A stretch of DNA of 40,844 nucleotides from a virus: positions 1 to 40,844 of IMG/VR virus record IMGVR_UViG_3300042864_000780. One strand, 5' to 3'. The number at the start of each line of letters is the position of its first letter. Positions within the stretch are counted from its first letter, which is position 1. Of this stretch, positions 1 through 28,456 are shown one piece after another. The translations under genes and the position numbers were made by a program. The notes beneath the pieces are model-generated. The model did not search any database and was not told where the DNA came from. It saw only the letters and a program-made list of their open reading frames with translations.

Positions 1-3000
1 TCTACTTTTACTTTATCGTCTCCATAGATTTGATTAGCGTACAAGGCTTCTATAGGGCTTCCTTTAAATAAATCCGTAGCAATTGCTCTAGAAAACTGGT
101 TTAAATCCATGGCTTGAATTTGTTCAGCGGTATATTGAGATAAGCCTAATATTTGGCCAATAGCATTCCACAATTCTTGTAACCAAGACTTAGTTTTAGT
201 GCTATTTTCCTGCACAAGTTTTGCCCCGTTATCCCCAATTGTTTGAGCTAATACTTCTTCTAAAAATGCATCACTGTCAACTTTTAGATCAGGCTGAGTT
301 TCCATTACATATTGTCTATAAGGCTCTGCTTCTTCAGATTTAGCTAATTCTAAACCTCTTTGATAGATTTCCTCAAGATTATTTTTAGCCCAAGATAACC
401 ATAAATGTCCGAATTCATGGATTGGAGTGTCAAGATTCATCTTATCCATGTTTAAGTAAACATCTCCATTATAAACAAATCCCGCTGTTATAAAAGTAAC
501 ATTATCTGTTCCTAATTCAACCAATTTCTCTTCAATTTCTTCATTAGACATTTCAAAAACTTCGTTAGCTAATCCTGTTTCTTTTAATCTTCCTACAATA
601 CTGCTCATAAACTCAGATCCTGCTCCAATGAGAGATTCTTCTTGCATAGCGGTTATTGTTGATATTAAATCTCTAGCCTCCTCAATTCTTCCTTGTACTT
701 TTTCAGGAAGATTTGCTACCATTGTTTCAAATTGATCATTGGTAGGAATTCTTCCATATATTCTTAAATTTTGTGCAATATGATAACCCTTGCTATAATC
801 TTGCACATCACCTCTGGCACCTTCAAACTCTTTAGCTATTTCTATTAAAGATCTTAAAGCTATTATTCTAGCCTTTAAAGGATGTTCTATTTCTTTATCA
901 GTAGCTTTTTTATAAGTTAAAGTTTCTGGTACTAAAGGCACTATAGCATCCGCTCTCATAGCTGGGCCCGTAATAGGCTCACCAGCAGGGTCATAATACC
1001 AAGTACCCACAGCCATTTTATACCCATCTTCAGCGGCCATTTTAACCATTTCTTTCTTTATATTAGCCTCTCTAAATGGAGTATTTTCTGGAATTATGGT
1101 TTCTGCCATACTTCTATACCCATTAGGATCGGTATTCATTGGGTATACTTCTCTCTTTGGAACTTTTACTGTATACACAGTTCCTCCCACCATTCTTTCT
1201 TCATCAGTAGGTAAAGTGTAGTAAGAAGCTACCCCATACTGAGTGGCTTTTTCTTCTTTTGATGTTCTTAGAGAATAGAATTTTCTTGAATCTATACCTG
1301 CATTAATTTCTGCTACAGGTGCATTAGATTTATGGAAAAATACATAGTTTTCTCCATCTTCTGTTTCAGTTAAGAAAGATTCATAATAAGTGTCTTTTAC
1401 TAAATCAGTATTTTTATTCTTGGTTACCGCAGAAAGAAGTACTTGTTTTTTAGGCACTGGCTTAGATTTCACGTTATCCAATACTAAAGCATTGTCTGCA
1501 AAAAGTATATTAGGATTCACTCCTATTTTGTGACTTCCTAAAGTATCCTCATTCATAGTGATAATTCTATCTAAAAGAAAGCTTATTAAAATACCATCAT
1601 TTAAATCTTGATTTCCATCAGTATAAGGAAGAATTGAATCTAACTTATCTATCTGAGATTGTGTAGAAGAAGCTCTTAAATCTAGTTTTCTACCCCCTAA
1701 TTCACTAGAAAGTAAATACTGTAAGTTTACTAATTTAGGGTTTTTTAATTTGTTATTTTTAACAAGTGCATCTAACTCCGCTATAAAATTTGGATAAATA
1801 TCCACTCCATCAACATTGTTTGCAGTAAGTTTATTTCTGTCAATTAAATCAAGAACTGCTTTTAAGTCTTGAGAGCTATAACCTAATTCTGATAACTTAG
1901 GAGTTACCATAGGTATGATAATATTCTTATTAGGAAAATTAGTCATAAAAAGATAGGATGCCCCTAGCGGTGCATTGGTTGGTACCTTTCCAGGCACTAC
2001 CACTCCGTTTTGATTTTTAAACACACGTTGTTTGTCCTCAACACCCACATAAACCATTTCATATTCTCCTGGAACCAATACTCCAGATGCTATTGCATTT
2101 TTCTCCCAATCAGCAAAAGATTGAAGAGGGGCTCTATTGAAGTCGTTAAACTGTATATCCTTTATTCTAGCTTTTGTAGGTTGTAGTCTATTAAATCCTT
2201 TTTTATTAGAAATTTTTAGAGTTTCTCTTAAAGGAGAATTTGGAGCAACCATTCCTATTTTTTCTCCATTTGCATTTACTATAGACAGAGAAGCTTTGTT
2301 TTTGAAGTCTTTTTGTACCTCATCAGTATCATTATACCCCATTTCATTGTTCTCTACTATTTCTACTTCTGTACCAATAATATCAGCAGCTACTGCAATA
2401 TCATTAACTACTTCTACGAATCCATTAGGTTGTACAAATTCAATATAATTTTTAGACAATACTGGAGTTTGTGTATCAGCATTTAGTACTTGATACGTTC
2501 CTTTGCCTTCAAAAGATTTTGGCATAAGCCAATTATTGAATTTATAAACAGCTTTCAAGTCTTCTAAAGTCATTCTTTTTTTACCATATTTATTTGCAAG
2601 AACATTGTCTCCAAATATTTTAATAGTATAAAAAGCTCCTTTATGATCGTCAACTTGAATATATAATCCTTTTCCTAACCCAGCCATAAATACTTGGGTG
2701 TCTTCTTTCATTGCTTTTTTAGAAGTAGTCTTAGTGGCTTTATTTTTATCCTCTACTTTCATGTCTTCTTCGGTAGCTTCTATTTCAGGCTGAATCACAG
2801 TTACTTCTGTTTCTTGAACAGGAATATCTGATTCCAATACTACTAAAGAATCTTCTTTCAAATTATCTGCAGTTGTTGCAGGAGTGTCTTCTTCGTCTAA
2901 AGGAATCTCATCAAATGATTCTACTTCTTCTTGAGTTAGTAACCCCTCTTCTTCTAAAGTAGTTAATACAGGATCACTAGTGGTAAGTTGTAATAATGTT

Positions 3001-6000
3001 CTACTAAGAGTATTATCATTATTATTAATTTCATTAAAACTATTTTTAACAATACTCAAATTAGTTAAACCGTTTTCAGTTGTAGAAGTATTGTTCACTC
3101 TAATAGGTAAAACATTTATAGAAGCTACTGTTATTCCATTATCTTGAAAAATAGCTTGTATTTCAGTTAGATCGTTAGACCAACCTGAAGCTGCGGCAGC
3201 ATAGTTACCTGCTGAAAAAGATTTAAAATCAATTAAGTGTACACTTCCTTCAGTATCAACTACTGTTAATATAGGAGTGGTAGCAATGCCTTCATATCCT
3301 CTTCCTTCATCTTCGGAAAGTTTTGAAGTTACTACTTCATCATTAAACTTATACGCAAATCCTTTAGCATCTAAATCTGATTTTAATGCTAATATTGTTT
3401 CTGCTATAAATTGTAAACTTCTATTATCAATACCTACTTCTGTATCAAACCCAGACTCAATAATAACTTTATTGATTATCTGAGATACATTATAAGGAGT
3501 TAATAATAATGAGTTGTTAAATACTTGTTTAGCTATTTCACTAATAACCGCATTTGTCAATACCGTATTTCTCTCTTCTTGAGTCATCATAGTTGGAGAA
3601 ACACTATATCCTGTAGGTTTGTATAAGTTGCCATCAACCTCAAACATAGGATTACCGTTCACTTGTGTAATGATTTTCTCGACAAAAATACCTGATATAC
3701 CCTCTAAACGAGTCTCATCCTGGGCAGATAATTGTTTATTTAGATAGGTTTTTACTGCTTTTTTTGTTTGAGCATAAGACTTTTTATTTTCAAACCCTAG
3801 TCTTTTTGCGTATTCATATACTTGTTCTTTGTCTTCTAAAATAGTCTTTATGTCTTCCTTATTTTTAGGAGTAATAATTTGAGATCTTTCTGAAGATTTT
3901 TTTACACCTGTAGTATATTCAAGTTCTATAAGCCTTTCTACATCTCCTAAAGTACCTTTATTTTCAGATAATTTTTTAGTAGTAGCGTTTTTTTCTTTAA
4001 TATTATTCTTTGAAGCTTGGAATTCTTCCAAACTCATAGGAGTAAATTTAGAATCAAAAACTTCCACTCCATATTCTTTTTTCAAGACGGAGTTTGATTT
4101 CTTTAATGCTTTAAATGCGTCTAAATAATCAGCATAAGCTTCGTCAATTTCGTTTTGATCTATCTCTTCATCAGTGGCATCTACAACTGCTAAAGATTGT
4201 ATTTTTTCCCTTAAAACTATATCCGCAGTTCTAAAATCATTATATCTATCAACAGTTTCTTGTTGGGTATCAAATCTACCTGCTTTATATTGCTTTTTAA
4301 GAGTAGCTATAGTCTTATCACTAGCTTTTATAGTTTTTTCTAAAGTTTGTTTTTGTACTTCTAACTCTTTAGTATCTGCCCCCTCTATTTTAGCTGTTTC
4401 TATATTGGAGTTTACCTCTTCCAATTGACTCATGGCCATTTGTTTGTCCATAATAGCATTGCTTGCCGCTTTATATGCAAAATTACCTTCCTTGTTATTT
4501 TTTGCTCTTATAAGGTCTGGGGCTTCAGAAGTTACTTGATTTAACTCTTGTATATATTGTTTTTGTACAGGCTTAGTTTCTTTGTTAAAAGTATCTATGA
4601 ATGTAGTTAAATTATTATTACTTAATTGTAACTGCTCGTAATCAGAAATTTGTTTTGATAACTCTTCAGTAAGAGGATTGCTACCTACTGTTCTATAGGT
4701 ACCTTCAGGAGAAACAGAGATATTTCCCTTTCCTACTTCTTCATCTAAAGCAATTTTCTTTTCAGCTAATTCTCTTTCATTTAAACTTTGTCTGATAATA
4801 GCGTTGTCAAAAGTTCTACCACTATTAAGTTTATTTAAACTTTCTTCTGTCAATCCAATTGTATTTGCAAATCCTTTTATTACAGGATTTGCAAAGTTTA
4901 AAGTAGCTAAAGCATCATCATTGACTCCAAGTTCTGTTTTTCTTGCATTATAAGAATCTCTTAATGCTTTATAATCAGACATCATTTTTACTTGATCTGT
5001 TTCAGAAAATTTATTATCACTATTCTGAGTCATAATATCTACCATAGAAGTAAAAGTAGGTTCATTTTCAAAAGCTGTCTTTAAATAATCTTCTTTTGCA
5101 AAAGGAGCTTTAGTTGACATAGATTTAACTAAATCCATACCTGAAGATAATGTACCACCTGTCAAAGCAGAAGTTATTGCTACATCTGGATCTAAAAATC
5201 CTAGATCTTTTAAGGTTTCTTGATTATATGCTTTATCTCCAGTTATTTTTTCATTAATAAAATTTGCTCCTGCATTAATAAGAGGTTCTAATATAACTTC
5301 TTCAGCAGCTTCTTGTCCACCAGATATTGCAACATCTTTTAATACTTTCCCCGTTGAAGACATAATATTTTGAAACATTACTTTTCTAATAGCAGCATTA
5401 GACAATTTCTCCCTTAAAGCAACATTAGGGATTTTAGCAAATTCTTTTCTAATAGCTTTCATTGCTTGCATTGAAGATTCGATAGCATTAGGCATTATGA
5501 CTTTATTTATATCATCCCCTGTTAATCCTATTGCTTTACTTTGTAAATGAGAAGTGAGCAATGTACCAAAAGCTAAGGCACCCGAAGTAACTAATGCAGG
5601 AAAAGGATTTTCTTTATCCTGTGCAGCTTCTTGGTATTTCTTGTATATTGAAGGATACTGTTCTGTCATATTGCTGGAAACATTAATCATAAAATTAGCT
5701 CCTTGAGCTAATCTTCTCTCATTAGCAGCTCCTTTTATTAATGCTCCTGCAACTTTACCTGCCCCTGCTCCAACTACTAAAGAAGGCATCTCCTCTACTA
5801 TTTCTTTATAAGTAGTATTCCAGGCATTTTCTAAAAATACTTCTTTTCCTCCTTCAGTATCCCATAAAGAAGTTCCATTTTTTAAAATTTCTTCTTTGTT
5901 TGCCTCAAAATCATTTGCAAGAAATTGCATTATTTCTGGGTTATTGATTGTATACTCCAATCCTCCTCCAAAAGCATTTATTATTTGACCTTTAGGATCA

Positions 6001-7851: not shown

Positions 7852-9228
7852 TTATTTAGTTTCTAAATAAGAAGGTACTGTTCCAGTAGGGGTAACAATG
7901 TTTCCTGTTATTGAGTTTTCAAAATTAGTTTTAAGGGCTTTAATTTCTCCTGTTTTTCCTGTTTTACTTTCCACTATAATAGAAACTGTACCATCCATAT
8001 TGTCTCTAAAGTTTCCTGTAGGAGTATATCCAGAAGAATATTCTTCTGCTTTATAAGTTATTTCATTTCCTTTTGCATCTATTCCTTTTAAATTAGTTAT
8101 TTTTGGTTTACTAGTAATTGTTTTTCCTGTTTTATCCTTAGTCATACTGACTGCTTTAGTTAAGTAATTAGAGAGGGCATTTATTTTTTCACCCTGTTCC
8201 ATTTTGTCCCCATTCTTTACAAAAGAAGTGTTAGAATAATCTACAAGGGATGGTTTAGGTCCTTTTGTAGTACCTTTTGAGCTAGGAAATCCTGCAGACT
8301 GTTCAGCATTAAATCTAGCTTGTGCCCTAGCGTTTTCCGAAAGTTGTATCCCAGTACTAATATCAACATCTTCTCTAGGCATTCCGACTTTTACTGTAGG
8401 AGTTGTTGTTCCATATTTAGCAGCAGAAGACTTAAACATATTGTTAATAACATCGTCAATAGAGCTTCCTCTAGTTTTCTCATAGTTTCCTCTTCTATTA
8501 TACCAAGACTGGAATTCAGGATCTTGCATTAACCCTTGTTTAAATGAATTGAAAGCTGTTAATAGTTTACCTGCAGATTTATCCTCTATAGCTTTTTCTT
8601 GTAATCCATACAATCCGTATTTAACAATAGCATTTTGTACATCAGCGGGAACCGCCTTAGCAAACTCATCTGCTTTTGTTTGTAAATCGTATTCCTTATA
8701 AATAGGATTAAAAGTAAAATCGTTAGTTTCCCCTCTTAAAAATTTTTGATAATTTCCTTCATTTGCATTATTCCAAGGTTGTTCTGCAATCTCAGGTTTT
8801 TCAAATTTCATTTTTTCATAGCTCATAGCATCCTGAGAAGCTTGGACAGCTCCTTGTAAAACAGGGTCATTTTTAGCCTTTATTAAACTAGTATTCAATG
8901 AAGTGAAGTTTGCAGAGTCAGATAGCTGAAGCTGTCCCATATTGTCTATAATAGCCCCTAATTTATTATCTAACTGACCTTGTAAATCATCAAATCTTTT
9001 ATGTAACTTTACTTTTTCTAAAATTGCATCTCTTTGTTTTAATACTTCGTCTAAACGCTTATTAGCTACTTCTTGAGCAAACTGAGCGTTTTGATTTATA
9101 AGCCCCATATTTAATCCCTGGAAATCAGCAAAATCTATATCGGCCCATTCGGGGCTATACATTATTTGCTGGCCTATACCTGCAGAAGAAGGGGAAAAAC
9201 CCCCTGATGGATTTCTTTGTCTAGCCAT
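7852..9228 (-). CDS. Probable internal virion (cargo) protein, 458 aa
   Basis: Start is ATG at 9228, two bases after the stop of the preceding large cargo gene, and the stop lies seven bases before the giant gene, so the three are surely co-transcribed. The protein has no signal peptide or membrane segment. Residues about 45-110 are helical and charged, the middle is mixed, and the C-terminal third is rich in Lys, Gly and Thr like a flexible or beta-rich tail. I recognise no catalytic motif. Its place between two giant virion proteins is the usual position of a conserved medium-sized cargo protein in crAss-like phages; that role is inferred from context only. Confidence 0.75.
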   Translation of the reverse strand: MARQRNPSGGFSPSSAGIGQQIMYSPEWADIDFADFQGLNMGLINQNAQFAQEVANKRLDEVLKQRDAILEKVKLHKRFDDLQGQLDNKLGAIIDNMGQLQLSDSANFTSLNTSLIKAKNDPVLQGAVQASQDAMSYEKMKFEKPEIAEQPWNNANEGNYQKFLRGETNDFTFNPIYKEYDLQTKADEFAKAVPADVQNAIVKYGLYGLQEKAIEDKSAGKLLTAFNSFKQGLMQDPEFQSWYNRRGNYEKTRGSSIDDVINNMFKSSAAKYGTTTPTVKVGMPREDVDISTGIQLSENARAQARFNAEQSAGFPSSKGTTKGPKPSLVDYSNTSFVKNGDKMEQGEKINALSNYLTKAVSMTKDKTGKTITSKPKITNLKGIDAKGNEITYKAEEYSSGYTPTGNFRDNMDGTVSIIVESKTGKTGEIKALKTNFENSITGNIVTPTGTVPSYLETK

Positions 9229-9230
9229 AA

Positions 9231-12200
9231 TTATCTTTTATATCTGTTAAACGAAAAAATATTATCTATTAAAGTTCCTGCAAAAGGATTATTATAAGTT
9301 CCTGTATTGCCTAAAACTTGGTTTGCAAACATCTGACCTTGTTCTCCTTTAAACATATCTGGTTTAGATGCCATAATATTTAACATTTCCATTTTTTGAT
9401 TTTGTTCTTTTTGAGCATTTTCTGACATACTTTTAGCATATTCTGAATAGATCTCTGAATCTTTAACAGCTTTTTGTCCAAATAAGTTCCTTTTAAAGTT
9501 CAACATATTTTGCATATTAGTTAAATTCTGGTTTCTAACCCCCATATTACTACCTAATAAATCTTGTTGAAGTCCTTGGGTTTCATTATATAGAGCTACA
9601 TTTGTCTGGTTTAACTTACTTAAAGTATCTCCAAGTTGGTTATAAGCTTGAGCCCCTGCATTTGCAATATTACCTGCTAATGTACTCCAGTCTCCTGTTT
9701 GGTTTGCTAAAGCATTTGCAGTGTTTCTTTGAGCTCTTTCAATATTATATAAAATATTTCCTACAGGTATTTCGTTCTTTCTACTTCTGATATAAGTATC
9801 AGGAGTTTCCATTATATATAATGGATTTTGTGCAAGACCTGCCTCAAGTACAGCTTGGTTAGCTCCCAGTCCTCTACCTAATTGACCTTCAAGTAGACCA
9901 AAGTTAAATCTATTTTGCATAGGAACTCTTGCCGCAGGGCTTATTGGAGTATTTGCCGCTAATTGTAGAGCAGCTGCTTTTTCTGCAGGAGTTTGCGGAG
10001 TTGTAACTGCGGCAGTTTGCTCAGGGGTAGGAAGTAATTTGTAATCCTGATATTTATTCATTTCGTCTCTAGCAACTTGTTCTTCTTCTGGAGAAAGTAA
10101 ACCTTTACCTACTGCTTGAGAAAGAAAGGATATACCTTCTTTATTTAATCTATCTGTAGTTTCTTTAGAAAAAAGAGGAAACTGAAATCCACTTCTAGTA
10201 GAAGTAAATTGTCCCATTTTCTTGTCATATAATTTTGCAGAAGGATCTTTAGCGTTATTAAATTTAAGAGCTGATTTTAAAGTATTTATTTGTTCAGGCT
10301 TATATTGCCCTTCTAATTTAGAAGTCATATTGTCAACATACTTATCAAAGTCTTGTTGAAAAGCCAGGGTATTTTCTTTAGTTGGAGGTAGATAGTTTCC
10401 TTGGTTATCTTTTTTAAAGTATTTACTTGCTAACCCAGGTATAATACTTTCATACTGTCTCATTCTATTATTAAAGGTATTATAATCTATTCCAAATAAA
10501 TTTTTAGAAGCATCAACTGTTCTTTGCAAAGGATAGTCTATAATTCCTGATGGATTTGCATTTAAAATATTAGAAAATGTATTCAGTACGTCAGCTTGAC
10601 TTGTTAAAGGAACTGCAACTCTTTCTTCAGGTTTTTTTACCCCACCTTTAGGAGTTCCTTTTGCATACTGAGGAATCATTCCTCCCCAAGCCATCATTTG
10701 TTCTTCAAGCATAGCTCCTTCTGCTAATTCTTTGCCTGACTTAATTAAATCATTCATTTGTATACTCAAGTCTAAGTAGGATTTTTTATTTCCTTCTTTT
10801 AATTTGTCAGTATCAAAAGCATTTGGAGTAGATTTATTTTGATATTTATTCTTAGCATACTCAGAAATATCTGCAGGAGATAATTTTTTACCGTTTTTCT
10901 TTCCGTATTTACTTTGATATACTTGTGCTAGTTTTTTAATATCTTGCTCTGCATTTTCAGGTTTAAACATCTGCATCAATTGTACATACTGGTCAGGAGT
11001 AAGTTTATTACGAGCACTTTGAATGTGTGATCCTCCAGGTAATAAATCTGTTACTTCTCCATCTGACATATTTTCGTGAGATGTAGTAGCTTCTACTGAC
11101 TTAATTGTGCCATCAGGAAGAGCAACTTGTTCTGCCTGTCCTTCAAAAGTTTCTGTCTGTACAGGAATACCTTCTGTCATGCTATTTAACATACCCCCTT
11201 CTTCATATATTCTACCTCCCATAGCTTTCTTCCATCCTGCAGCGTTCTTTGCAAAATTAGCCATTTTTACTACGTCAGCAGTATATTTACTTCTATTAGC
11301 CATTACTTTATTAGCAGCTTCTTGAACAGTCATTCCTCGTTTAGCAGCCCATTCAGTAAACTTACCTTCATTGGCAGGGTTAATATTAATTCCTCCGCCC
11401 ATAGCATACATAAAATCATCTTCTTCATACCCCATCATAGGACCTGCTATCATGCCGCCTCCTGGGTACATTGTAGGATAATTGTAATCTGCTTGATAAT
11501 CCATCATATCACTTCCTACCATACCACCCCCAGGGTAATACGTTGGATATTCTACATATCCACCCATATTATAAGGATTCTGACCTGCAAGCATTAATTG
11601 TTCTACTTCAGGAAGGATTCCTCCATCGGCCCAAGTGCCAAATCTTTTGTGCCAATATAATGGAGAAAACGGATCCCTTGCTTTTGCTGAATCTTTTCCT
11701 CCCATTCTTGACCAAAAATTATCTCTTCTTTTTTCAGACTTATGTTGTTTGAAATCTTGCATTCCTCTCCATCCGCCTTGAACTACTTTATATTTATCGT
11801 CTTTTTTAGCTAAGACTTTCCATTTATGTTTTCCGTCACCTTGTTTCTTTTGACCCACTTTGGTGAATCCCATATTCTTATATCTCTGAGGGATTCCTCC
11901 TCCATCTGCATACTCCTCTACTTCCCCGCCCATAGACATGTTAGAGATTATATTTTCTTGGACAGCTTTTGGTAAAGCTTTAAATCCTTCATTATTAATT
12001 CCGCCTCCGTTATAATAACTGTCTACCATACCACCCATAGCCATATTAGCTATTATGTTTTCTTGTACAGATTTAGGAAGTGCTTTAAATCCAGGATTAT
12101 CAATGCCTCCGCCCTCAGCATATTCATCTACATATCCCCCCATTGCAGCTTTTTTCCATTTACCACCTTTTTCTTTATACCATTTAGCAGCAAAACCATT

Positions 12201-12500
12201 TGCATACGCTGAAGGGTAAACATCATATTTTGATTTAGCAGCAGCTTTAGCCTTACTCCATAATGAAGGATTGGTAGGAACATTTCCTCCATTTGCCATT
12301 TCTTCTACCTCCATTTCTTCCATATCAGATTCCTCATCTTCGTTTTCTTGTTGTTGGTATTTAGCAATAATTTCTTTGGCTTCAGGATGAGCTTTGAAAA
12401 ATGTTTCCTTATTTGGAAACTTTTTGTAAAATTCAGCCTCTGTCTTTACACCTGCTATTTTTAATAATAATTCTTTCATATTAATTTTTTTAAATTTCAT
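9231..12500 (-). CDS. Large cargo/virion protein with MGG-type repeats, 1089 aa
   Basis: Residues 1-50 are helical and followed by a Glu-rich stretch (50-68). A segment around 78-117 (PSLWSKAKAAAKSKYDVYPS) and another at about 226-290 (including NFWSRMGGKDSAKARDPFSP) are recurrent modules of large Bacteroidota-phage virion proteins. Between and after them lie about ten short MGG/DGG motifs followed by a hydrophobic residue, often a Tyr, and a second Gly pair, including a 35-residue tandem repeat at 120-189. The C-terminal 600 residues are Gln/Asn/Ala-rich and helical. The first ATG overlaps the upstream gene by 11 bases; the ATG at 12479 (M8) has the better A-rich leader and may be the true start. 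Position after the muzzle gene supports a DNA-accompanying cargo role; function is not shown directly. Confidence 0.8.
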   Translation of the reverse strand: MKFKKINMKELLLKIAGVKTEAEFYKKFPNKETFFKAHPEAKEIIAKYQQQENEDEESDMEEMEVEEMANGGNVPTNPSLWSKAKAAAKSKYDVYPSAYANGFAAKWYKEKGGKWKKAAMGGYVDEYAEGGGIDNPGFKALPKSVQENIIANMAMGGMVDSYYNGGGINNEGFKALPKAVQENIISNMSMGGEVEEYADGGGIPQRYKNMGFTKVGQKKQGDGKHKWKVLAKKDDKYKVVQGGWRGMQDFKQHKSEKRRDNFWSRMGGKDSAKARDPFSPLYWHKRFGTWADGGILPEVEQLMLAGQNPYNMGGYVEYPTYYPGGGMVGSDMMDYQADYNYPTMYPGGGMIAGPMMGYEEDDFMYAMGGGININPANEGKFTEWAAKRGMTVQEAANKVMANRSKYTADVVKMANFAKNAAGWKKAMGGRIYEEGGMLNSMTEGIPVQTETFEGQAEQVALPDGTIKSVEATTSHENMSDGEVTDLLPGGSHIQSARNKLTPDQYVQLMQMFKPENAEQDIKKLAQVYQSKYGKKNGKKLSPADISEYAKNKYQNKSTPNAFDTDKLKEGNKKSYLDLSIQMNDLIKSGKELAEGAMLEEQMMAWGGMIPQYAKGTPKGGVKKPEERVAVPLTSQADVLNTFSNILNANPSGIIDYPLQRTVDASKNLFGIDYNTFNNRMRQYESIIPGLASKYFKKDNQGNYLPPTKENTLAFQQDFDKYVDNMTSKLEGQYKPEQINTLKSALKFNNAKDPSAKLYDKKMGQFTSTRSGFQFPLFSKETTDRLNKEGISFLSQAVGKGLLSPEEEQVARDEMNKYQDYKLLPTPEQTAAVTTPQTPAEKAAALQLAANTPISPAARVPMQNRFNFGLLEGQLGRGLGANQAVLEAGLAQNPLYIMETPDTYIRSRKNEIPVGNILYNIERAQRNTANALANQTGDWSTLAGNIANAGAQAYNQLGDTLSKLNQTNVALYNETQGLQQDLLGSNMGVRNQNLTNMQNMLNFKRNLFGQKAVKDSEIYSEYAKSMSENAQKEQNQKMEMLNIMASKPDMFKGEQGQMFANQVLGNTGTYNNPFAGTLIDNIFSFNRYKR
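11934..12143 (-). repeat. 35-codon tandem repeat, two full copies plus a partial third
   Basis: Within the 1089-residue cargo gene, residues 120-154 and 155-189 are near-identical units. Each begins MGG, continues through Y-x-x-GGGI-x-N, and ends with GFKALPK-x-VQENII-x-NM. A third copy begins at residue 190 (MGGEVEEYADGGGI) and then diverges. The spacing is exactly 105 bases, pointing to duplication of one unit. Confidence 0.9.
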
Positions 12501-15207
12501 CTAGCCATCCACCGCTAGTTTTTTTCTGGGATGATATGTAACCAAAATATTTTCTTTGTTTGTCTGTTGTAAAACTCTTATCGTGCAACATTTTTTTAGC
12601 CTTAGTAGGAGTTAATCCTCCTTTACCGAATTCTTGTATATCTTCATTCATATAATCAATCATACCTCCGTCTTGGAATCCTATTCCAGACAAGCTACTC
12701 ATAATATTTCCAAATCCTTTCATACCTGTTGCCCCTCCTTTCATATTACCCATCATTCCTTTTAAGCCTCCCATATTTTTAGCCATTCCTACTCCGCCTT
12801 TAATGTTTCCAAATAAACCTGAAGCAGTATCCATCATATTACCAAAATCTTGCGAAGCATTAACCATTCTATTACCTGAAATATATCCTGATTTATCATA
12901 ATTAGATAAAGCATCTTTTGCCTGAAAAGTTCCAACTGTACTACCTACTCCTTCTCCTACATCTCCTATACCTTGGCCAACCATTCCTACATTTCCTGTA
13001 GCAACTCCGCCAATAACTTTTGCGGCACCACTTGTTACATTACCTACACCTCTACCCACAGTATAGCCACCCGTTCTAGTTAAGAATGAATCTCCTACAA
13101 TATCTTTTGTAACATCTCCTAAAATTGGAACTGTACTCATAATACCTAAATAAGCACCAACAGGTTCTTTTAAAAAGTTAAATGCACCCCAATCTACTTT
13201 ATCATCTTGAAAAGATTGTCTATCTTTTCTTACTTTTGTATTTAAAAAATCGTTTGCATTGGCAGCCTGTAAATCAGCTAAAGAAGCTCTATTACTACTA
13301 GCGTTAAATACTCTAGGAGAATTATTTACATTACCATAACTATCTCCATATATTCCAGCCAATCCTCCTCCATATTGATATTTTCCAATTCTACCCCCAT
13401 TCATATTCACTAAATCATTTAGATTAACTCCCATATCATAAGGAGTAGTATCGTCAGTAAAATGCACTCTAGGAACTGGATTATAGTTTTCGTGAAATAC
13501 ATTACTTTTATGAATATATTCAGGGTCCCCTACTGGTAACATATCCATACTTCCACCATCTTGATATTTACTTAAATATCCTCCATTTTTTTGACTTAAT
13601 AAAGACATTCCTTGTAAAATACCTTTACTTCCTGCTCCCCCTGGCAGTCCTCCAAAAACTTGACCAGTTCCATCTCCACTCATTCCTCCAGATATTCTAC
13701 CAGCTATTGATTCTAAATCTGTATCAAAAAGATTTGAACCAGTTTTACCCTCTGCAAAATTTAAAAGTTTATTATAATCAAACATCTTTTTAGCGTCATC
13801 ACTCAAACCCTCATAGCCTGTCTTAGGCATACCCATATTGCTCATCAACCCTGTTATCTGGTTAACACCTTGATTTACAGAACCTAATATATTATTAATT
13901 CCTGAAAATACACTTGGTTGGTTAATTTGTTCTTCCATGTTTTCAATAGTATCAGGCATAACAGATCTAAAGTAACTGTTATCTTGATACAATTCAGGAC
14001 CTACACCAAAGCCTTTATAACCTTCTTGATAATCAAGGTAGCCTCCTGCTGGATATTTTTTAAATTTATTTTTCATATCATTGTATATTAATCCCCCGTC
14101 TTCTTTTTTGTGATTATAATCTATTCTTTCAGATGAAGTTTTTTCTCTTTTAAATTTTGCTTTTTCTGCGCTGCTTAATTCCGATGCAGTTTTAGGGGTA
14201 TCACTACTTATTCTTTTAGAAGGTCTACAAGCGGGGTACCCTTTTCTTTTTTCTCCTTTTTGTCTACCACATTCCTTACCTGTTTTAACGTCTACCCATT
14301 TTTCAGCAAACCATCTATCTAATCCTCCATGGTTTCCACCATCTTTCATTATAGGTATTTCTGTTACTTGGTCTACAAAAAAGTTGTCATTTACTTCTCC
14401 TCCCATTTCAAATTTTTTTAAAAGTGGAGCTGGTCCCCAAGATTTTAACTCTATATCACTATACACAGGTACAGGATCTTTAGAGTTATACATAGTATTT
14501 AAATATTTTACATATTCTGGGTTTTGATTTAATACATTATCCCTTAAATCCATTACTTGCTTTCCATACAAAGGATTTTTTTTCATGTTTATTCCTGTAT
14601 TTGGAACAGGCACTCCATAGATTTTTTTCATTTTAAATCCATGATAACCTTGTTCTGTACTAGGTTTTACTACTCCAAGACCGTTGTATACTTGCAACCT
14701 AGTGGCATCATCTTTTATACCTAACCTATCTGCTTCCTTCATTTTAGTTATATAAGCATTAGTTAATGCCTCTAAATCACTTCTTGAAGTTAAATCTTCT
14801 AATACATGACCAAGATTTTCATCCTCTTTCCCAAACTTAGTTTCTTGAAAAGCTATAGCTGCTAAATTTTTAACATCTTCTATTGGTAGTTTTTTTCTTT
14901 TAGCAGATTCTATTATTCCTTTTAAAACTTCTAAATCATATTCTCCAGACGTTATGTCAACATTTGGCCTTATTGGCTGCCCACTTGTAGCTAAAACTTT
15001 TCTTTTGTCTTCAATTTTAAATGTTTTAGGGCTACTTTTTGCAGGGGTAGATTTAGGTTTTGGTTTATTAATTGTTTCAGTAAAAAACTCTTTTATTGCA
15101 TCAACAATCCCTCCATCAGCATATTCACTAATAGAAAATTCCTCAGAGTAGTTATCTAACCACCCTGAAGAATTAGTTTTATTAAGATTAGTCTTCTTTT
15201 TAGCCAT
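12490..15207 (-). CDS. Large cargo/virion protein with lysozyme-like and DUF5872-like segments, 905 aa
   Basis: The ATG at 15207 shares its first base with the stop of the muzzle gene (TAATG). Residues about 90-235 resemble a lytic-transglycosylase-type fold: LAAIAFQETKFG around 115-126 with candidate catalytic E122, and YNGLG at 174-178. Residues about 297-366 (DRWFAEKWVDV, then CGRQKGEKR and ACRPSKR) match a segment I associate with DUF5872-type phage proteins. Between and after these are many D/M-GG motifs, then a Gly/Met-rich hydrophobic stretch (about 690-850). The last 40 residues carry LTPTKAKKMLHDKSFTTDKQ, a tail seen in many phage virion proteins. GWLD occurs at both ends (residues 15-18 and near the C-terminus). 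A peptidoglycan-opening internal protein is plausible; the enzymatic call is motif-level. Confidence 0.8.
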   Translation of the reverse strand: MAKKKTNLNKTNSSGWLDNYSEEFSISEYADGGIVDAIKEFFTETINKPKPKSTPAKSSPKTFKIEDKRKVLATSGQPIRPNVDITSGEYDLEVLKGIIESAKRKKLPIEDVKNLAAIAFQETKFGKEDENLGHVLEDLTSRSDLEALTNAYITKMKEADRLGIKDDATRLQVYNGLGVVKPSTEQGYHGFKMKKIYGVPVPNTGINMKKNPLYGKQVMDLRDNVLNQNPEYVKYLNTMYNSKDPVPVYSDIELKSWGPAPLLKKFEMGGEVNDNFFVDQVTEIPIMKDGGNHGGLDRWFAEKWVDVKTGKECGRQKGEKRKGYPACRPSKRISSDTPKTASELSSAEKAKFKREKTSSERIDYNHKKEDGGLIYNDMKNKFKKYPAGGYLDYQEGYKGFGVGPELYQDNSYFRSVMPDTIENMEEQINQPSVFSGINNILGSVNQGVNQITGLMSNMGMPKTGYEGLSDDAKKMFDYNKLLNFAEGKTGSNLFDTDLESIAGRISGGMSGDGTGQVFGGLPGGAGSKGILQGMSLLSQKNGGYLSKYQDGGSMDMLPVGDPEYIHKSNVFHENYNPVPRVHFTDDTTPYDMGVNLNDLVNMNGGRIGKYQYGGGLAGIYGDSYGNVNNSPRVFNASSNRASLADLQAANANDFLNTKVRKDRQSFQDDKVDWGAFNFLKEPVGAYLGIMSTVPILGDVTKDIVGDSFLTRTGGYTVGRGVGNVTSGAAKVIGGVATGNVGMVGQGIGDVGEGVGSTVGTFQAKDALSNYDKSGYISGNRMVNASQDFGNMMDTASGLFGNIKGGVGMAKNMGGLKGMMGNMKGGATGMKGFGNIMSSLSGIGFQDGGMIDYMNEDIQEFGKGGLTPTKAKKMLHDKSFTTDKQRKYFGYISSQKKTSGGWLDEI

Positions 15208-18200
15208 TAACGCATGGATATGTTATAGTTAAGGACTGTAAATTTAAGTATAAATTTTAAATTTTCTAAATCTTTATTATCTATATTGACTCTATAGTTA
15301 AAGAAATTATTCTCAAGCCTATCTACTTGGGTCCAATCCTTAGCAAAACTTACATTAGCATTAGGGACTGGAAAAATATCTCCATCCACAAAATTAATAG
15401 TATCATCTAATACATAATTAGCTAAATTATTGCAATATACAATACCATTTATTATACTGTGTGGCTCATTGCTTAGTACAACATTTTTCATATAATCCTT
15501 ATCAATAGGAGTTTTTAAGAAAATTTCTCCACTATGTTGTCTACTAGTCCAAACCTGTAAGCTTGTAGGTACTTCATTGGTAATTAATAGTTGTCCGTTA
15601 ACATTTTTATACGCATCTATTTTCATACCAACATTGTTAAGGGTTGTGTACAATAATGGATGATAAGTAAACACCCCGTCAACTAAAGAAGGGTAATTAA
15701 CTCCATAAAATTTTCTATAAGAATTAAAGTTATCTTCATGTATATAAAGATTATAATTGTCATCTTGGGTAAAGAAAGTGTCTCTATTCTGAATATATGC
15801 CATTGGTAAATACGAATGGAAAGAATAAAAGGCCTTATCTTCTGGATAATAACTGAGGGTAAACCCGTTTGTTTTATCTGTTAGTAAAACTCTCCTATGT
15901 CTATAATCATATCCAAAATAAATTTCCACTGTAGATAAATCTGGATTTGATTGAGGTATAATAGGTAAGTTAGTGTTTGTAGAAGCCCCATAAGAATTAA
16001 AATAATTATTCCATTGATCCTTAAAGAAACTGTTCATACCATAAGTAGAAATTGCATCTAATTTTCCGCCAGACATTAGATTTAATGTTTGGTTTTTTAA
16101 GTCTGCAAAGAAATATCCAGTATTATTTTGAAACCTAAACCTTTTATCTTGCAATCCCATATAGCCTTCATTAGAAGCAAATAACTCCAATTGTTGAGCA
16201 CTTAGAAAATCATTTGTACCTAAATACACTAGACTATTATCTGCCTGTAATTTTGACTCAAGAGTCAATAGTCTCCAAATATTATCTGTAGTATGTGCAT
16301 ATAAAATTTGACTCTCTTTAAATAAGTTTGTTATTTTTCCTTCTTTATGAGGAAGAGTTACAAAACTATTTTTAAGGAACTTACTGTAATTTAATCTTCC
16401 CACTGCTTCATTATCAGCGACTGATATAGCTATTCGGTTGTCATATTCTGCATCACAATCACAAGTTTTATAATCTTTATTTATAGGTTTAAAGAAATTA
16501 AATCTCATTCCATTTAACTCATTGTAATCGTTATTTAGATTTATTTTATTATCATGGAAGTTTTTATAAGCATCATTATATTCTACCTCATCATAATTAG
16601 TTGAGGTACAATTATCGTTTTGATCTCTACAAATCAACTCGTAAAAATAAGTATTTAAGAAGCAGTCTTCCGCATATTCATTTTTTCTATTAGAAAATAA
16701 ATAGTATTTACCATTAGATAATTTAGGGTAGTACACTTCATTAAAGTTAGGCCCTTCATATCTTAAATCTAAGTTTACATCTGACTCTGTAACAGTATTT
16801 ATTAAAGTTACATTTGCTTTTTGAGCAAGATATAAATTTAATAAATAAGAGTCTTTATTTCTTCCTATTATTGATTGAATTGTATATGTAGGGTCTCCTC
16901 TATCCATCCAAGCAGCACTATTATCATCTATATAAGAATCTTCTAGCATACCCGTTACCCCTGTTCTTACAAAAGAAAAAGTATTAATATAACTATCACC
17001 ATAAAACCCTGTCAAAGTACTTTGACCCGCACATCCTTTTAATCCTGTATCAATAAAAAACATTTCCTCAATACTTCCATATTGTCTTGATAAATTATTT
17101 TTTATAGATCCATAATAAATATAACCAATGTTACATTCATCTAATATTCCTGGCGCAGTGGTATTATCCAAATAATCATCAAAATAAGAAACCCCTGATG
17201 GAACAAAAGGAGCAGTAGCTGTAACAAAAACATCCGAACTACCTACAGTAAGAGGGGGCCCTCCAGTTCTAGTTAAAGTAGTGCTATTAGTAACAATAAA
17301 TGTATTTGAATTAGATATTACTGATGGAACAGTAGAATTACTTACAATAATTGTAGTACCTACAGGATAGTTGTTGGTGTAACTAACTAAAGTTGTTGAA
17401 GTTGCTGTAAATGTTTGTTCTGCTGCATAGTTAGGTATTTTTTGCAACCATAAAAAATTAAATATAGATCCTATTGATGAAACAGGAAAAGTACCTGAGT
17501 TTATTTTTGTAAGTTCTACAAATTGTTGTGGAGGAAACCCAGAAATAGGGCCAAGATTTGTAACTTCAAACTCATCTCCTGGTAATAAAGGAGAAAAGAC
17601 TCCTGGGCTATAAACAAAATATTTTTCATTTAAAATATAATTACCTGGAGATTGAGCATTAAGTCTTATTTTATTACCAGATATTATATTATAACTAATT
17701 ACTGAAAACCAATCAAATGGAAGAGAACTTCCTCCTGCGCCCGTATAACATTTCTTACTACTTGTATCTGAGTTGAAAAATTCTAAGTTTTTATTAAAAG
17801 ACAAATCTGACTTTAATTGATAATCTAAATAAACCCCGCTCTCTCTGTAAAAATTAACTAAAGAATATTCAGAGTTTAATATCTTATTTAAGATTACATT
17901 ATCATTTACATAAGAGTAATTGTCTATACAAATATTTTTAAAGTTATACTTTAAAGATCTATTTTTATAACCATTAGTTCTATCAATAGATCCGTCTGTA
18001 TTTTGCACATAACCATAATCATAAAAGTTATATATTTGAACTGCAGCAGATCTCAGTCTACCGTCTTTATCTTTAAAGGTAGAAGGGTCTATTACTGGTT
18101 CCCCACTATTAGAATTTGTAGTATTTACCCCATTTATAGAGTCTATATAATATCCTACGGTATTGTATTGTTGCTCTATCTTAACATAGTTTACGTTTAA

Positions 18201-20210
18201 TCCTTGTTGAGCAAACATAGTATTTCCCCCATAAAACATAATACCATTATCATAATGTGTACCATATCCACAGTTTGCAACAAAGTCTTGAATAGGACTA
18301 GAAGTTTCTATAGTTTTATCTCTAAGATTGGAAAAATAATCCCATTTAGCTGCGGCATTAACATTATGTTTAGGGTATATAAAATCTTGTCCATTAAGAT
18401 TGTTTTTGAACATTTCAACAAACCAACCTTTATCTTGTACTGATTTATTAAAAGTATCTCTTCTTACATATACTACTCTATATCCTGTAACTTTAACTCC
18501 TCCCGTTTCTTCTAAAGTAGGCATTACTACCCCTTCTAATTTTATACCTAAAGGATAAATCTCTAAACTATCATATTTACTATCATATCTATTTTTATTG
18601 TCCTCAATAGCAAAATCATCTGTAATATTATTATGAAAAGGCTCAATAGTTGAGTCTGGCATTTTAAATAAAGTAATATTTTTTCCTGTAACTTTTTTAG
18701 TAATAGGATCAATATCTACAGGATACATATATCCACTTTGTTGTTCTGGGTTGCCTGCACATCTAGGTATAACAGGGTATTTTTCTTCTGACTCAAAGTA
18801 GCCTAAATATCCTTCAGATCTAATATTGTTAGAATCATTATCAATCGTTCCTGAACAAAAATCTGTCACACTAAGATCTCCTGCAAATTCATTATATGCA
18901 GTTCTTTTTGCTGTATTAACCTCTTTCCAATATTTTCTATCATCTGTACAACAAAGAACAGTATCATTAGTTTGAGGGTTTTCTATATTCCAGTCGGGAA
19001 AAGGAGTATATTTTTTATTAATCAAAGGAAATACAGGAGATTCTGACATATCTTCAAATTCCAATACAATTCCTATCATATAATTTTCATCCCTCATCCA
19101 AGATTTGTGATGAATAACATGCTCAGGGTTTTTATATCCTTTTGTTCTACTTAAATTTATTCTTCCTGTAACATATTTTACAGATATATCATTAGCATAA
19201 GGCTGGTAATCAACATTTTTAATTCCTCTTACTCCTGCAATTAAAAGTTTGTTATTATAAATCAAACCATGTTTTGCTGATACATAAAAAGCTCTTTTAT
19301 TTAAAACTTCTGCCAAATCTACAGTTTCAGTAAAAGTAATATCTCCCCCGTAAGTAACTGTAATATTTTGTGAGACAGGTTGCAGTCTTTTAAATATAAA
19401 AGAAGTAGATACACCATTAACTGTTTTTATGAACCCTACGTTCATATAAGGGTATTTAGTATCTACATTTTCAAATAATAATACAATACTTTTATTTAAA
19501 ATTTTAGAAGGATTACCATCAATATATTGAAATGTACCTGAAACACTGTCTTCTATTAAAGGAATATTCTCATTAATAATATAATAGTTAGTAGTATTGC
19601 CATCAGTATCTTCATACTGAATAAAAGGTCTGTATACTCCTGCATCTACATTATATGCAGAGTTTTCAATAAAGCTTACATCTGCTAAATTAATGCAAGT
19701 TTCAGCAGTTTTAAATAACTCTAATTCTTCTATATTTCCAGAACCAGGCCCCTCTTTAAGATACTTAGTTACATTAATATTTCGCACTCTGTTTTTACCA
19801 TCCCAAAAAATTAATACAATATCTTCACACTCTGTTTTTGTAAAAGAAACTGATTCTAAATATATATTAAAATCTAACCCTGGGTCCGAATACAAGAGGG
19901 TGTAAGTATTTAAATTAGGATCATATAATCCTATTTCATTTGTATGTAAAAATACTACAACTTGATTGAGTTGTTTAATTAGATTAGAATGTAAAACTTT
20001 CCCAGGCAACTTGATTCTAAATGCGTTAGAATATTCTGTGGTGAGAAAATTTTCATCCCCTTCAGAAGATTCTTTCACCATATTCAAAGCTGCTCTATAG
20101 GTATCTGCAGGTTGTGCTTCTGGAGAGGCATCTACATTTATACCCTTAGTAAAGGTATAATTTTTTATATCTTGAAAACTTCTTGTTTTATTACTATTTT
20201 GCTCTGCCAT
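15207..20210 (-). CDS. Muzzle-type tail protein of crAss-like phages, 1667 aa
   Basis: The protein begins with an extended segment (FTKGINVDASPEAQPADTYR within residues 18-40) followed by ALNMVKE and then a beta-rich body of about 1,600 residues full of Tyr, Asn and aromatic/Gly turns, with no membrane segment. Length, beta-rich composition and position right after the hub and IHF-like genes match the muzzle (also called tail stabilisation) protein that forms the distal end of the crAss-like tail barrel. The start is 12 bases after the hub gene's stop, and the stop overlaps the next ATG by one base. A Ser/Thr/Val-rich stretch near residues 930-1010 looks like inserted beta repeats. Assignment rests on family resemblance and synteny; the fold itself is not visible. 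Confidence 0.8.
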   Translation of the reverse strand: MAEQNSNKTRSFQDIKNYTFTKGINVDASPEAQPADTYRAALNMVKESSEGDENFLTTEYSNAFRIKLPGKVLHSNLIKQLNQVVVFLHTNEIGLYDPNLNTYTLLYSDPGLDFNIYLESVSFTKTECEDIVLIFWDGKNRVRNINVTKYLKEGPGSGNIEELELFKTAETCINLADVSFIENSAYNVDAGVYRPFIQYEDTDGNTTNYYIINENIPLIEDSVSGTFQYIDGNPSKILNKSIVLLFENVDTKYPYMNVGFIKTVNGVSTSFIFKRLQPVSQNITVTYGGDITFTETVDLAEVLNKRAFYVSAKHGLIYNNKLLIAGVRGIKNVDYQPYANDISVKYVTGRINLSRTKGYKNPEHVIHHKSWMRDENYMIGIVLEFEDMSESPVFPLINKKYTPFPDWNIENPQTNDTVLCCTDDRKYWKEVNTAKRTAYNEFAGDLSVTDFCSGTIDNDSNNIRSEGYLGYFESEEKYPVIPRCAGNPEQQSGYMYPVDIDPITKKVTGKNITLFKMPDSTIEPFHNNITDDFAIEDNKNRYDSKYDSLEIYPLGIKLEGVVMPTLEETGGVKVTGYRVVYVRRDTFNKSVQDKGWFVEMFKNNLNGQDFIYPKHNVNAAAKWDYFSNLRDKTIETSSPIQDFVANCGYGTHYDNGIMFYGGNTMFAQQGLNVNYVKIEQQYNTVGYYIDSINGVNTTNSNSGEPVIDPSTFKDKDGRLRSAAVQIYNFYDYGYVQNTDGSIDRTNGYKNRSLKYNFKNICIDNYSYVNDNVILNKILNSEYSLVNFYRESGVYLDYQLKSDLSFNKNLEFFNSDTSSKKCYTGAGGSSLPFDWFSVISYNIISGNKIRLNAQSPGNYILNEKYFVYSPGVFSPLLPGDEFEVTNLGPISGFPPQQFVELTKINSGTFPVSSIGSIFNFLWLQKIPNYAAEQTFTATSTTLVSYTNNYPVGTTIIVSNSTVPSVISNSNTFIVTNSTTLTRTGGPPLTVGSSDVFVTATAPFVPSGVSYFDDYLDNTTAPGILDECNIGYIYYGSIKNNLSRQYGSIEEMFFIDTGLKGCAGQSTLTGFYGDSYINTFSFVRTGVTGMLEDSYIDDNSAAWMDRGDPTYTIQSIIGRNKDSYLLNLYLAQKANVTLINTVTESDVNLDLRYEGPNFNEVYYPKLSNGKYYLFSNRKNEYAEDCFLNTYFYELICRDQNDNCTSTNYDEVEYNDAYKNFHDNKINLNNDYNELNGMRFNFFKPINKDYKTCDCDAEYDNRIAISVADNEAVGRLNYSKFLKNSFVTLPHKEGKITNLFKESQILYAHTTDNIWRLLTLESKLQADNSLVYLGTNDFLSAQQLELFASNEGYMGLQDKRFRFQNNTGYFFADLKNQTLNLMSGGKLDAISTYGMNSFFKDQWNNYFNSYGASTNTNLPIIPQSNPDLSTVEIYFGYDYRHRRVLLTDKTNGFTLSYYPEDKAFYSFHSYLPMAYIQNRDTFFTQDDNYNLYIHEDNFNSYRKFYGVNYPSLVDGVFTYHPLLYTTLNNVGMKIDAYKNVNGQLLITNEVPTSLQVWTSRQHSGEIFLKTPIDKDYMKNVVLSNEPHSIINGIVYCNNLANYVLDDTINFVDGDIFPVPNANVSFAKDWTQVDRLENNFFNYRVNIDNKDLENLKFILKFTVLNYNISMR

Positions 20211-27460: not shown

Positions 27461-28456
27461 CTAATATGTTTTGTTTAGTATAAAAATATCACTGTAGATA
27501 TTATTTGTTGCATTGTTACTTCCCCATTGTATAGTGACATCTAAAGTATTATTTATTGTAGTATTAAAAGTTGTATTATTAATTACATTAAATGCAAACC
27601 CTTGAACAGAAGCATTAGAAGTTTTAGTATAATGAAAACTTCCCAAAGAAACTATAGAGGCTACACCAGCAGCACCAAGTTGTCTAATAGTAAAATCAAT
27701 ATTTAAAGAAAAAACATCAGCTACAACAGCACTTCCGAGATTTTGTAAACCACTATCTAACAATAAAGCACCATTTGATCTAACTCTTATTCTTATAGTT
27801 TGGTTATTAGCAGCATTTATAACCCCTCCAAATACTGCTCTAAAACTATCGCCAACTTGGAATCCATTTGCAGGTACACTCAAAGTTCCAACGCCTCCGT
27901 TTATTAATGTAGTTTCAACTGTAGTTCCTGTTATAGGAGTTGAATTTCCTGTCTGAGCAAATAATCCTGGCATACCTACAGGTCCTGGTATACCCTGTAT
28001 TCCTTGAATACCTTGAATTCCTTGAGGACCTTGAATACCTTGTGGTCCTTGTAAATCTCCTACATCTTCCCAAGCATTAGTTGCTGTATTCCATACATAT
28101 AATGAACCATCAGATTCTATAATCCAAGCTTCTCCTGGGTTTCCTGGGCTTCCCCCTGCACCTGCATAAAATGCAGCAAGGTCTGGGTAAGACCCTAATA
28201 CTGTAAGAGCTGCTCCTTGTGGGCCAGGTACTCCTTGAATTCCTTGGATACCCTGTGGACCCTGTGGTCCTTGAGGTCCTGTAGTAGCACTCCAATCTCC
28301 TTGTTGATTTAAATACAATGTAGGACTTCCTGAAGAACTAATTCCAAGACAATCTTTAACTATGCAACAGAAATTATTACAACTACTATATAGTAAGTTA
28401 TATAATTTTCTCCCTGCTTTATACCCAAAAAGTTTTACAATTGCTTCTCTTGTCAT
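27461..28456 (-). CDS. Collagen-like tail or head fibre protein, 331 aa
   Basis: The protein consists of an N-terminal anchor with the LFG-x-x-AG-x-x-LYN motif (residues 9-21) and a Cys-rich turn (26-36), a first G-x-y tract (60-81), a globular insert (about 83-136), a second G-x-y tract (137-164, mostly GIQ and GPQ triplets) and a 165-residue beta-rich tip (SVPANGFQVGDSFRAVFGG onward) resembling a trimeric C1q/TNF-like head. Gly-x-y tracts form trimeric rods in many phage fibres. It should trimerise and project from the particle for adhesion. Confidence 0.88.
   Translation of the reverse strand: MTREAIVKLFGYKAGRKLYNLLYSSCNNFCCIVKDCLGISSSGSPTLYLNQQGDWSATTGPQGPQGPQGIQGIQGVPGPQGAALTVLGSYPDLAAFYAGAGGSPGNPGEAWIIESDGSLYVWNTATNAWEDVGDLQGPQGIQGPQGIQGIQGIQGIPGPVGMPGLFAQTGNSTPITGTTVETTLINGGVGTLSVPANGFQVGDSFRAVFGGVINAANNQTIRIRVRSNGALLLDSGLQNLGSAVVADVFSLNIDFTIRQLGAAGVASIVSLGSFHYTKTSNASVQGFAFNVINNTTFNTTINNTLDVTIQWGSNNATNNIYSDIFILNKTY
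27965..28048 (-). repeat. Collagen-like G-x-y tract, distal
   Basis: Codons 137-164 of the collagen-like fibre encode uninterrupted Gly-x-y triplets, dominated by GIQ and GPQ. A shorter proximal tract occupies 28214-28279 (codons 60-81). The DNA is a degenerate nine-base periodic repeat that may be prone to length change. Confidence 0.88.

Follow-up and report, generated by a model that had tools for sequence, protein, structure and literature searches.

Two adjacent proteins encoded by the virus record IMGVR_UViG_3300042864_000780 (40,844 bases, analysed as a whole and called the window here) contain many copies of a short motif built around a pair of glycines, which approximates to [FYM]-A-x-GG-x-[VIL] and frequently occurs in the double form GG-x-[VIL]-(xx)-[YF]-xx-GG. 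The proteins, of 905 and 1089 amino acids (aa), were named C1a and C1b by gene position. We found that the GG units are located where protein modules begin or end, and that they recur there though the modules differ. On this basis, the units are probably flexible inter-module joints of a cassette-built, ejected cargo protein with the architecture of beads on a string. For counting purposes, a strict double unit was defined as GG.[VILM](..)?[YFW]..GG. The two proteins are the following:

12490 to 15207, minus strand: C1a, cargo-position protein of 905 aa and first gene after the muzzle-position gene, with 21 GG runs, 2 strict double units and GWLD at both ends
9231 to 12500, minus strand: C1b, cargo-position protein of 1089 aa, with 20 GG runs and 4 strict double units

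The means of these GG run counts in shuffled sequences were 8.6 for C1b and 13.9 for C1a; the plain count of C1a is not decisive alone, since the maximum of 500 shuffles was likewise 21. The pattern [YFW]..GG was present 11 times in C1b and 7 times in C1a (shuffle means 0.89 and 1.45) and [MDNEKA]GG.[VIL] 12 and 7 times (0.56 and 0.97), while the other 28 of the 30 open reading frames (ORFs) of the window, pooled, contained 6 and 1 copies, respectively. A combined rule gave 14 + 11 copies in the two proteins, exceeding 200 of 200 shuffles, and a profile trained without the window and its close relative G001 recognized joints at 15 of the 20 GG runs of C1b and at 13 of the 21 of C1a; GG runs 112 and 267 of C1b, among others, scored below threshold and are not joints. 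An earlier sequence-only reading of this DNA had put the copies at about 18, which was a fair estimate although a low one; all eight motif strings that it quoted are present in the two proteins, and the 458-residue neighbour does lack the motif, as it had stated (one GG run and no copy). The three best-looking copies of C1b (residues 121-202) stem from an old tandem duplication of 105 nucleotides (nt) with 71% DNA identity. The double units and the terminal motifs are:

12105 to 12140, minus strand: double joint GGYVDEYAEGGG, residues 121-132 of C1b, strict unit
12000 to 12035, minus strand: double joint GGMVDSYYNGGG, residues 156-167 of C1b, strict unit
11895 to 11930, minus strand: double joint GGEVEEYADGGG, residues 191-202 of C1b, strict unit
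11193 to 11219, minus strand: double joint GGRIYEEGG, residues 428-436 of C1b, aligning with GGWLNTQGG (427-435) of gp45 of phage crAss001
13552 to 13584, minus strand: double joint GGYLSKYQDGG, residues 542-552 of C1a, strict unit
13363 to 13398, minus strand: double joint GGRIGKYQYGGG, residues 604-615 of C1a, strict unit
15154 to 15165, minus strand: GWLD near the N-terminus of C1a, residues 15-18
12493 to 12513, minus strand: GGWLDEI at the C-terminus of C1a, residues 899-905

Terminal GWL[DN] pairs were found in seven of the eight complete C1a ORFs of the window's group (L014 has no C-terminal copy), and the C1a protein of L025 has GWLD and NWLD at its two ends; the pair was present in none of the C1a proteins of L020, L021, L022, L023, L024 and L026. 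These terminal motifs are possible end caps or docking peptides.

In order to relate GG units to module boundaries, ends of shared blocks were clustered in 43 contributing proteins of a 46-protein set, after removal of L004_15004 (a near copy of C1a) and skipping L006_10098, which has fewer than three GG. IMG/VR records and annotated phages (from gut bacteria, feces, wastewater or sewage) were kept as two groups. Among the 677 clustered module ends, 54.9% lay within 10 residues of a GG against 28% expected, a fraction that 0 of 2000 circular shifts reached; by group it was 61% (27% expected) for IMG/VR and 46% (29% expected) for the annotated phages. When a single protein per cluster was used (29 clusters, 27 usable), 157 of 333 ends (47.1%) were near a GG against 28.6%, and 23 of the 27 representatives exceeded their own null (p 3e-7). 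GG ranked first of 258 dipeptides near module ends. Cassette exchange at the joints could also be followed directly. The window reads ...FEMGGEVN-(module B)-EDGGLIYNDM..., and the C1a-position protein of its relative L012 reads ...YEEGGEVN-(cassette with HELVH)-KNGGEIYNDM..., near-identical joints thus flanking unrelated cassettes (the L012 protein, at 14986-18162, carries the HELVH cassette at the place of module B). In L006 the N-terminus runs directly to a YPAGG joint without any cassette; the C1b ortholog of L006 no longer has the modules that lie between N-terminal domain and core, and retains two GG runs but no unit. The KFTEW module occurs twice in L011, and DAC17 contains the KFTAY/KFTEY module twice with joints flanking each copy. 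Separating otherwise unrelated modules, as the sequence-only reading had described the motif, is thus its best-supported role. C1a-position proteins span 432 to 2008 aa, with common blocks in varying contexts. Those at L009 15021-20894, L010 15292-20346 and L022 9827-15853 (1684 to 2008 aa) gave no Pfam hit at E 0.01, which suggests large cassettes of no Pfam family on the string.

The modules recognized in C1a and C1b are:

12342 to 12479, minus strand: N-terminal helical module of C1b, residues 8-53, with a predicted local distance difference test score (pLDDT) of 73-85 over residues 11-50
12156 to 12278, minus strand: module A, C1b residues 75-115, matching phrog_27331 (E 2.8e-5, 81-114) and 68% identical to a 57-aa ORF of phage C72C1
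11893 to 12102, minus strand: tandem duplication of a joint plus the GFKALPKxVQENIIxNM module, 2 x 105 nt, 71% identical
11643 to 11882, minus strand: C1b module of residues 207-286, matching phrog_7595 (E 0.003), with DUF5754 at 219-266 just under cut-off
11247 to 11372, minus strand: KFTEW module, C1b residues 377-418, matching phrog_20603 (E 2.7e-4), pLDDT 72-84
10635 to 11225, minus strand: conserved C1b core, residues 426-622
14488 to 15033, minus strand: probable lysozyme-type module of C1a, residues 59-240, between GG 32 and GG 269, best Z score 7.1
14101 to 14322, minus strand: module B, C1a residues 296-369, between GG 294 and GG 371, corresponding to the second half of DUF5872 and 70% identical to a P-SCSP2 gene

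In all, four of the window modules have counterparts among PHROGs that are 50-96 positions long (E 2.8e-5 to 0.003); a phrog_2310 match in C1b (E 0.035) was excluded from this count. Module A is a separate small gene in C72C1, Prochlorococcus phage P-SCSP2, Pelagibacter phage HTVC027P and Roseobacter phage CRP-207, and its L021 relative weakly matched DUF5872 positions 1-45 (E 0.004, under cut-off). The match of module B to the Pfam family DUF5872 covers positions 52-110 (E 1.4e-14), C1a residues 294-351 match phrog_23735 (E 0.001), and module B is a separate gene in C72C1, P-SCSP2 and HTVC027P, with tblastn matches in CRP-207, CRP-2 and CRP-7. In P-SCSP2 both modules are found between the gene for the scaffolding protein and that for the major capsid protein. 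In HTVC027P (L083 4200-5267) a small GG protein containing GGAMYKKGG, module A and module B are near neighbours, as if the kit were unfused. DUF5872 and DUF5754 are also listed in a giant virus; they are separate small genes in CpV-BQ1 and in the phages named above, whereas in the window the matching modules are beads between GG joints. The GFKALPKxVQENIIxNM duplication gave a weak YqbF_HeH hit (E 0.0015, below the family cut-off), and the KFTEW module is missing or doubled in relatives.

Fold comparison of C1a residues 59-240 returned lysozymes, a GH23 chitinase, MltF, lytic transglycosylases or cell-wall hydrolases in rows 1-17 (Z 5.8-7.1), the first unrelated row having Z 4.7, although a Z under 8 can mean just a common arrangement. 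The model of this block suggests a probable lysozyme-type fold, within the limits of a Foldseek E of 0.97 or worse and a block pLDDT of 32-77. Only residues 59-234 of the C1a model yielded a coherent fold list, and searches with the whole models of both proteins gave nothing at E 0.001 or below. Among other phages, the C1 protein of Bajarodcaudo virus 1 matches Phage_lysozyme2 (E 7e-7), and both this protein and the C1 protein of cr85 match the same part of a tape-measure PHROG. In the AlphaFold model of C1b (residues 1-640), the 18 GG blocks had a mean pLDDT of 31 against 48 in the other 46 (p 1.6e-4), a contrast giving weak support because the alignment was thin.

The motif was then compared across eight phage records, the window included, with a profile made from GG contexts by leaving out each record in turn (the window and G001 together); orthologs in other records remained within the training set, and orthologous contexts are non-independent, with p-values that are optimistic. 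This profile ranked the C1-position gene or genes top in seven of the eight records, with C1 hits over genome hits of 15 + 13 of 30 in the window, 15 + 13 of 31 in G001, 12 + 4 of 18 in G003, 10 + 7 of 20 in G004, 11 + 8 of 31 in G005, 4 + 4 of 19 in G006, and 4 of 8 for gp45 in crAss001; it fell short in G007, as described below. Strict double units numbered 22 across the eight records, all 22 in C1 genes (shuffle mean 0.42), a count limited by the six from G001, which are copies of those of the window and come from a record whose muzzle protein is nearly identical to the window's. A looser unit was present in 6 of 16 annotated C1 proteins. The distances between consecutive GG peaked at 9 (24 distinct cases, 1.6 expected) and 8 (16, 2.0 expected) in the IMG/VR set, and at 7 (15, 1.6 expected) and 9 (9, 1.3 expected) in the annotated set. 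Contexts of the form [FYMWH]A-x-GG made up 53/320 in the IMG/VR set and 25/218 in the annotated set, compared with 8/814 in other proteins and 12/1367 in shuffled ones. The core amino-acid pattern recurs in the pooled C1-position proteins of 16 annotated crass-like phages, and it is thus common to these phages and to the window's group. An additional record, G002 (119,980 bases), contains two differing C1b copies (2570-5308 and 110563-113160) whose identities to the window are 86% and 75% across roughly residues 820-1085, representing a paralogue or a mixed assembly.

The main genes of the window are on the minus strand, in the order muzzle-position protein (1667 aa), C1a, C1b, a 458-aa protein, and a 2614-aa open frame at the RNA-polymerase position that extends past the window end. 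Recoding was ruled out as a reading of the window, its frames being open under the standard code. The genes of the ring proteins CrAss_Ring_1 (PF24228, E 7e-23) and CrAss_Ring_2 (PF25702, E 4e-19), as detected with Pfam, are just upstream of the muzzle-position gene, an arrangement typical of a Crassvirales-type tail/cargo locus. The crAss001 genes run in the order gp44 (muzzle), gp45 (cargo C1), gp46 (cargo C2) and gp47 (RNA-polymerase subunit); C1a and C1b, directly after the muzzle and before the gp46- and RNA-polymerase-position genes, therefore occupy the gp45 position by gene order. Correspondence with crAss001 by sequence comes from the ring proteins and one shared gp45 module. The neighbours of C1a and C1b are:

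15207 to 20210, minus strand: muzzle-position protein of 1667 aa, matching a virion structural protein of Flavobacterium phage Fpv1 (27%)
7852 to 9228, minus strand: 458-aa neighbour at the gp46 position, with no motif and no detectable similarity to gp46

Elsewhere in the window, a 331-aa protein (27461-28456) contains collagen-like repeats (PF01391, E 4.5e-8) and is perhaps a fibre.

The closest known counterpart of C1a and C1b is Crassvirus cargo protein 1 (crAss001 gp45; PDB 7qog and others; PF25725 crAss_CARG1), which they resemble in the post-muzzle gene position and in the motif. C1b shares with gp45 the KFTEW/KFTAY module and both flanking joints (pairwise E 2e-5), GG-x-[IL]-xxx-GG following this module at the matching place in both proteins. 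Unlike crAss001, with one C1-position gene, the window has two, and no Pfam hit to CARG1 was obtained in the window proteins at E 1. In the sections of PMC10172136 drawn on here, gp45, gp46, gp47, gp49 and gp50 were detected in crAss001 virions by mass spectrometry, and the resolved parts of gp45 are residues 425-552, bound to the portal, and 214-245, at the tail barrel, two contacts about 420 angstrom apart with 179 residues between them. The portal-bound domain starts at a joint (GG at 427), and besides joints 263, 332 and 373 the stretch between the contacts carries a pair of repeated modules (about 266-329 and 376-424). With both modules folded, about 66 linker residues at 3.5 angstrom and two beads of about 25 angstrom would reach about 280 of the 420 angstrom, and therefore at least one bead is presumably unfolded in the stored state. 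This fits a string of small beads that can be pulled straight and refold.

Proteins of the C1a/C1b type are probably carried inside the particles of crAss-like phages. By analogy with gp45, a C1 protein would be stored in the virion with one part in the capsid and another in the tail, and the string would be threaded out of the particle and into the bacterium before the DNA leaves. The joints would act as hinges, so that small modules (about 20-80 residues) and larger domains such as the lysozyme-type one could pass the portal and tail singly and refold outside, and a joint would let the string tolerate insertion, loss or exchange of cassettes. T7 and P22 ejection proteins also exit before the DNA and may include a cell-wall hydrolase; the likeness is functional (the cargo would work like them) and not drawn from sequence. 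The same comparison of crassvirus cargo with T7/P22-type ejection is made in PMC10172136. Window C1 proteins also resemble polyvalent proteins in being multidomain with a shuffled architecture. Polyvalent proteins, according to the text of PMC5512222 searched, are single phage polypeptides that combine numerous unrelated domains and are proposed to pass into the host, although neither "glycine" nor "linker" occurs in that text, unlike the joints of the window. By Pfam, no known polyvalent domain or embedded metallopeptidase was found in the window C1 proteins; the HELVH cassette is in the relative L012.

Several results weigh against the GG units being inter-module joints of an ejected cargo string. 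We infer the virion location of C1a and C1b from gene position; the muzzle-position protein did not significantly match crAss001 gp44 (pairwise BLASTP E 0.083), the 458-aa protein had no significant match to gp46, and profile comparison of the C1b core with crAss_CARG1 was not significant (probability 1.7%, E 0.011), the model of the core being poor. Both AlphaFold models are poor (mean pLDDT 46 for C1b and 36 for C1a), and low pLDDT at joints is weak evidence because module A, a real module, was not modelled. GG 242 of C1b passes as a joint yet sits inside the phrog_7595 match. The excess of module ends near GG is smaller in the annotated set, 4 of the 27 cluster representatives were not above their own null, and BLAST ends are pulled toward joints because joints resemble one another. 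In G007 one C1 gene came first in the profile ranking (9 of 17 hits) and was followed by an 853-aa gene, with the other C1 gene in third place (2 hits), level with a 1470-aa gene. The crAss001 signal was small (besides the four hits of gp45, gp47 had 2, and 5.5 were expected genome-wide from shuffles), and 6.9 hits were expected from shuffles in G006. A cruder motif count picked gp47 and not gp45 in crAss001, named two other small genes but no C1 gene in G006, and in G007 named the 1470-aa gene and a 473-aa gene besides one C1 gene. No strict unit was present in crAss001, G006 or G007, and the share of G001 in the strict-unit total has been given above. Tyrosine at +5 was restricted to the IMG/VR set (8/218 in the annotated set). 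In the ORF sets used for HTVC027P and CRP-207 (50,000 of 54,895 bases) neither an enriched gene nor a strict unit was found, the HTVC027P set omitting the annotated 112-aa protein that contains GGAMYKKGG. Fpv1, a cultured phage with a related muzzle, had 4 profile hits genome-wide against 4.0 expected and none at the C1 position, where 0 of 8 GG contexts scored in a protein whose cargo role is itself deduced. Finally, a plain linker leaves the conserved [FYM]A and [VIL] positions unexplained. Since this aromatic and aliphatic conservation goes beyond the needs of a bare linker, a weak second role of the joints is likely, for example contact with the tail lumen or between copies. An extension of this idea, which we put forward tentatively and hold to be doubtful, is that the GG unit is a cargo code: a bipartite joint, hinge plus sticker, that splices free-standing small modules of phages and giant viruses onto one injected string and sets tail storage and the order of release.

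Other explanations of the GG units were also considered. The one that survives best, although unlikely, is docking, in which every GG unit would act as a short linear motif for a site repeated on the portal, the ring proteins or the muzzle, its binding there holding the string in tail and capsid. The conservation of [FYMWH]A-x-GG, the GGWLN joint that opens the portal-bound domain of gp45, and GWL[DN] at both ends of the L025 protein and of most complete C1a ORFs in the window's group agree with docking, but the other resolved contact of gp45 (214-245) has no GG, joints 263, 332 and 373 lie within the unresolved stretch between contacts, six further C1a proteins lack the terminal pair, and two module-less C1-position proteins (L006 and Fpv1) lack the motif. 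Since these two proteins, without module strings, have no motif, the packaging tag or ejection signal suggested in the sequence-only reading is disfavoured as well, if taken as one that all cargo proteins require; against it are also 11 of 12 gp46-position proteins beside C1 in Steigviridae-type phages, in which YxxGG is absent (that of DAC17 has one).

Processing was judged improbable. It supposes that the polyprotein is cut at GG after ejection, perhaps by a zincin-type protease of the RNA-polymerase-position protein, which would free the modules. The window protein carries the following motif, which we take to be a zincin-type metal site:

405 to 419, minus strand: HEFGH near the C-terminus of the 2614-aa RNA-polymerase-position protein, motif only

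A comparable HEAFH is present in crAss001 gp47, Carjivirus gp45 is annotated as an RNA-polymerase-associated protein fused to a zincin protease, and release of polyvalent proteins by embedded peptidases is proposed in the searched text of PMC5512222. However, no HExxH was found in G005 or G006 proteins longer than 400 aa, there is no GG in the gp45 peptide ranges cited in the consulted part of PMC10172136, and residues 425-552 of virion gp45 are described there as one compact domain despite GG 427, 434 and 447, and therefore at least those three appear uncut.

It is very improbable that joints are kept as DNA recombination sites promoting cassette exchange with no role in the protein. Module ends do coincide with joints, but all four glycine codons are used at GG, the joint DNA copies detected by a repeat finder show 68-84% likeness across 22-25 nt, and distant phages have the core amino-acid pattern in common; this codon use and DNA divergence suggest selection on the joints at the protein level. 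A low-complexity artefact of glycine-rich composition plus one tandem duplication is barely credible: three copies do come from the 105-nt duplication and C1a is 13% glycine with a plain GG count inside the shuffle range, but motif counts in both proteins exceeded all 200 shuffles and 16 of the 22 strict units remain after removing G001.

The C1 position and its cargo role were already known, as was the concept of injected proteins with multiple domains. The joint motif and its coincidence with cassette seams appear to be new, since no description of the motif was found among the titles and abstract starts listed in searches of open-licence PMC literature, though it may be in print elsewhere. 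Joints of this type bear on the question of how crassviruses store megadaltons of protein and eject them through a narrow tail, and they yield testable predictions of which parts of gp45 are hinges. A recognizable joint also provides a parsing rule for hypothetical proteins, which can be cut at the joints before their beads are identified, and it links uncharacterized small proteins of phages and giant viruses to likely ejected cargo. If the cargo code were true, the joints would predict which domains of hypothetical proteins enter the host.

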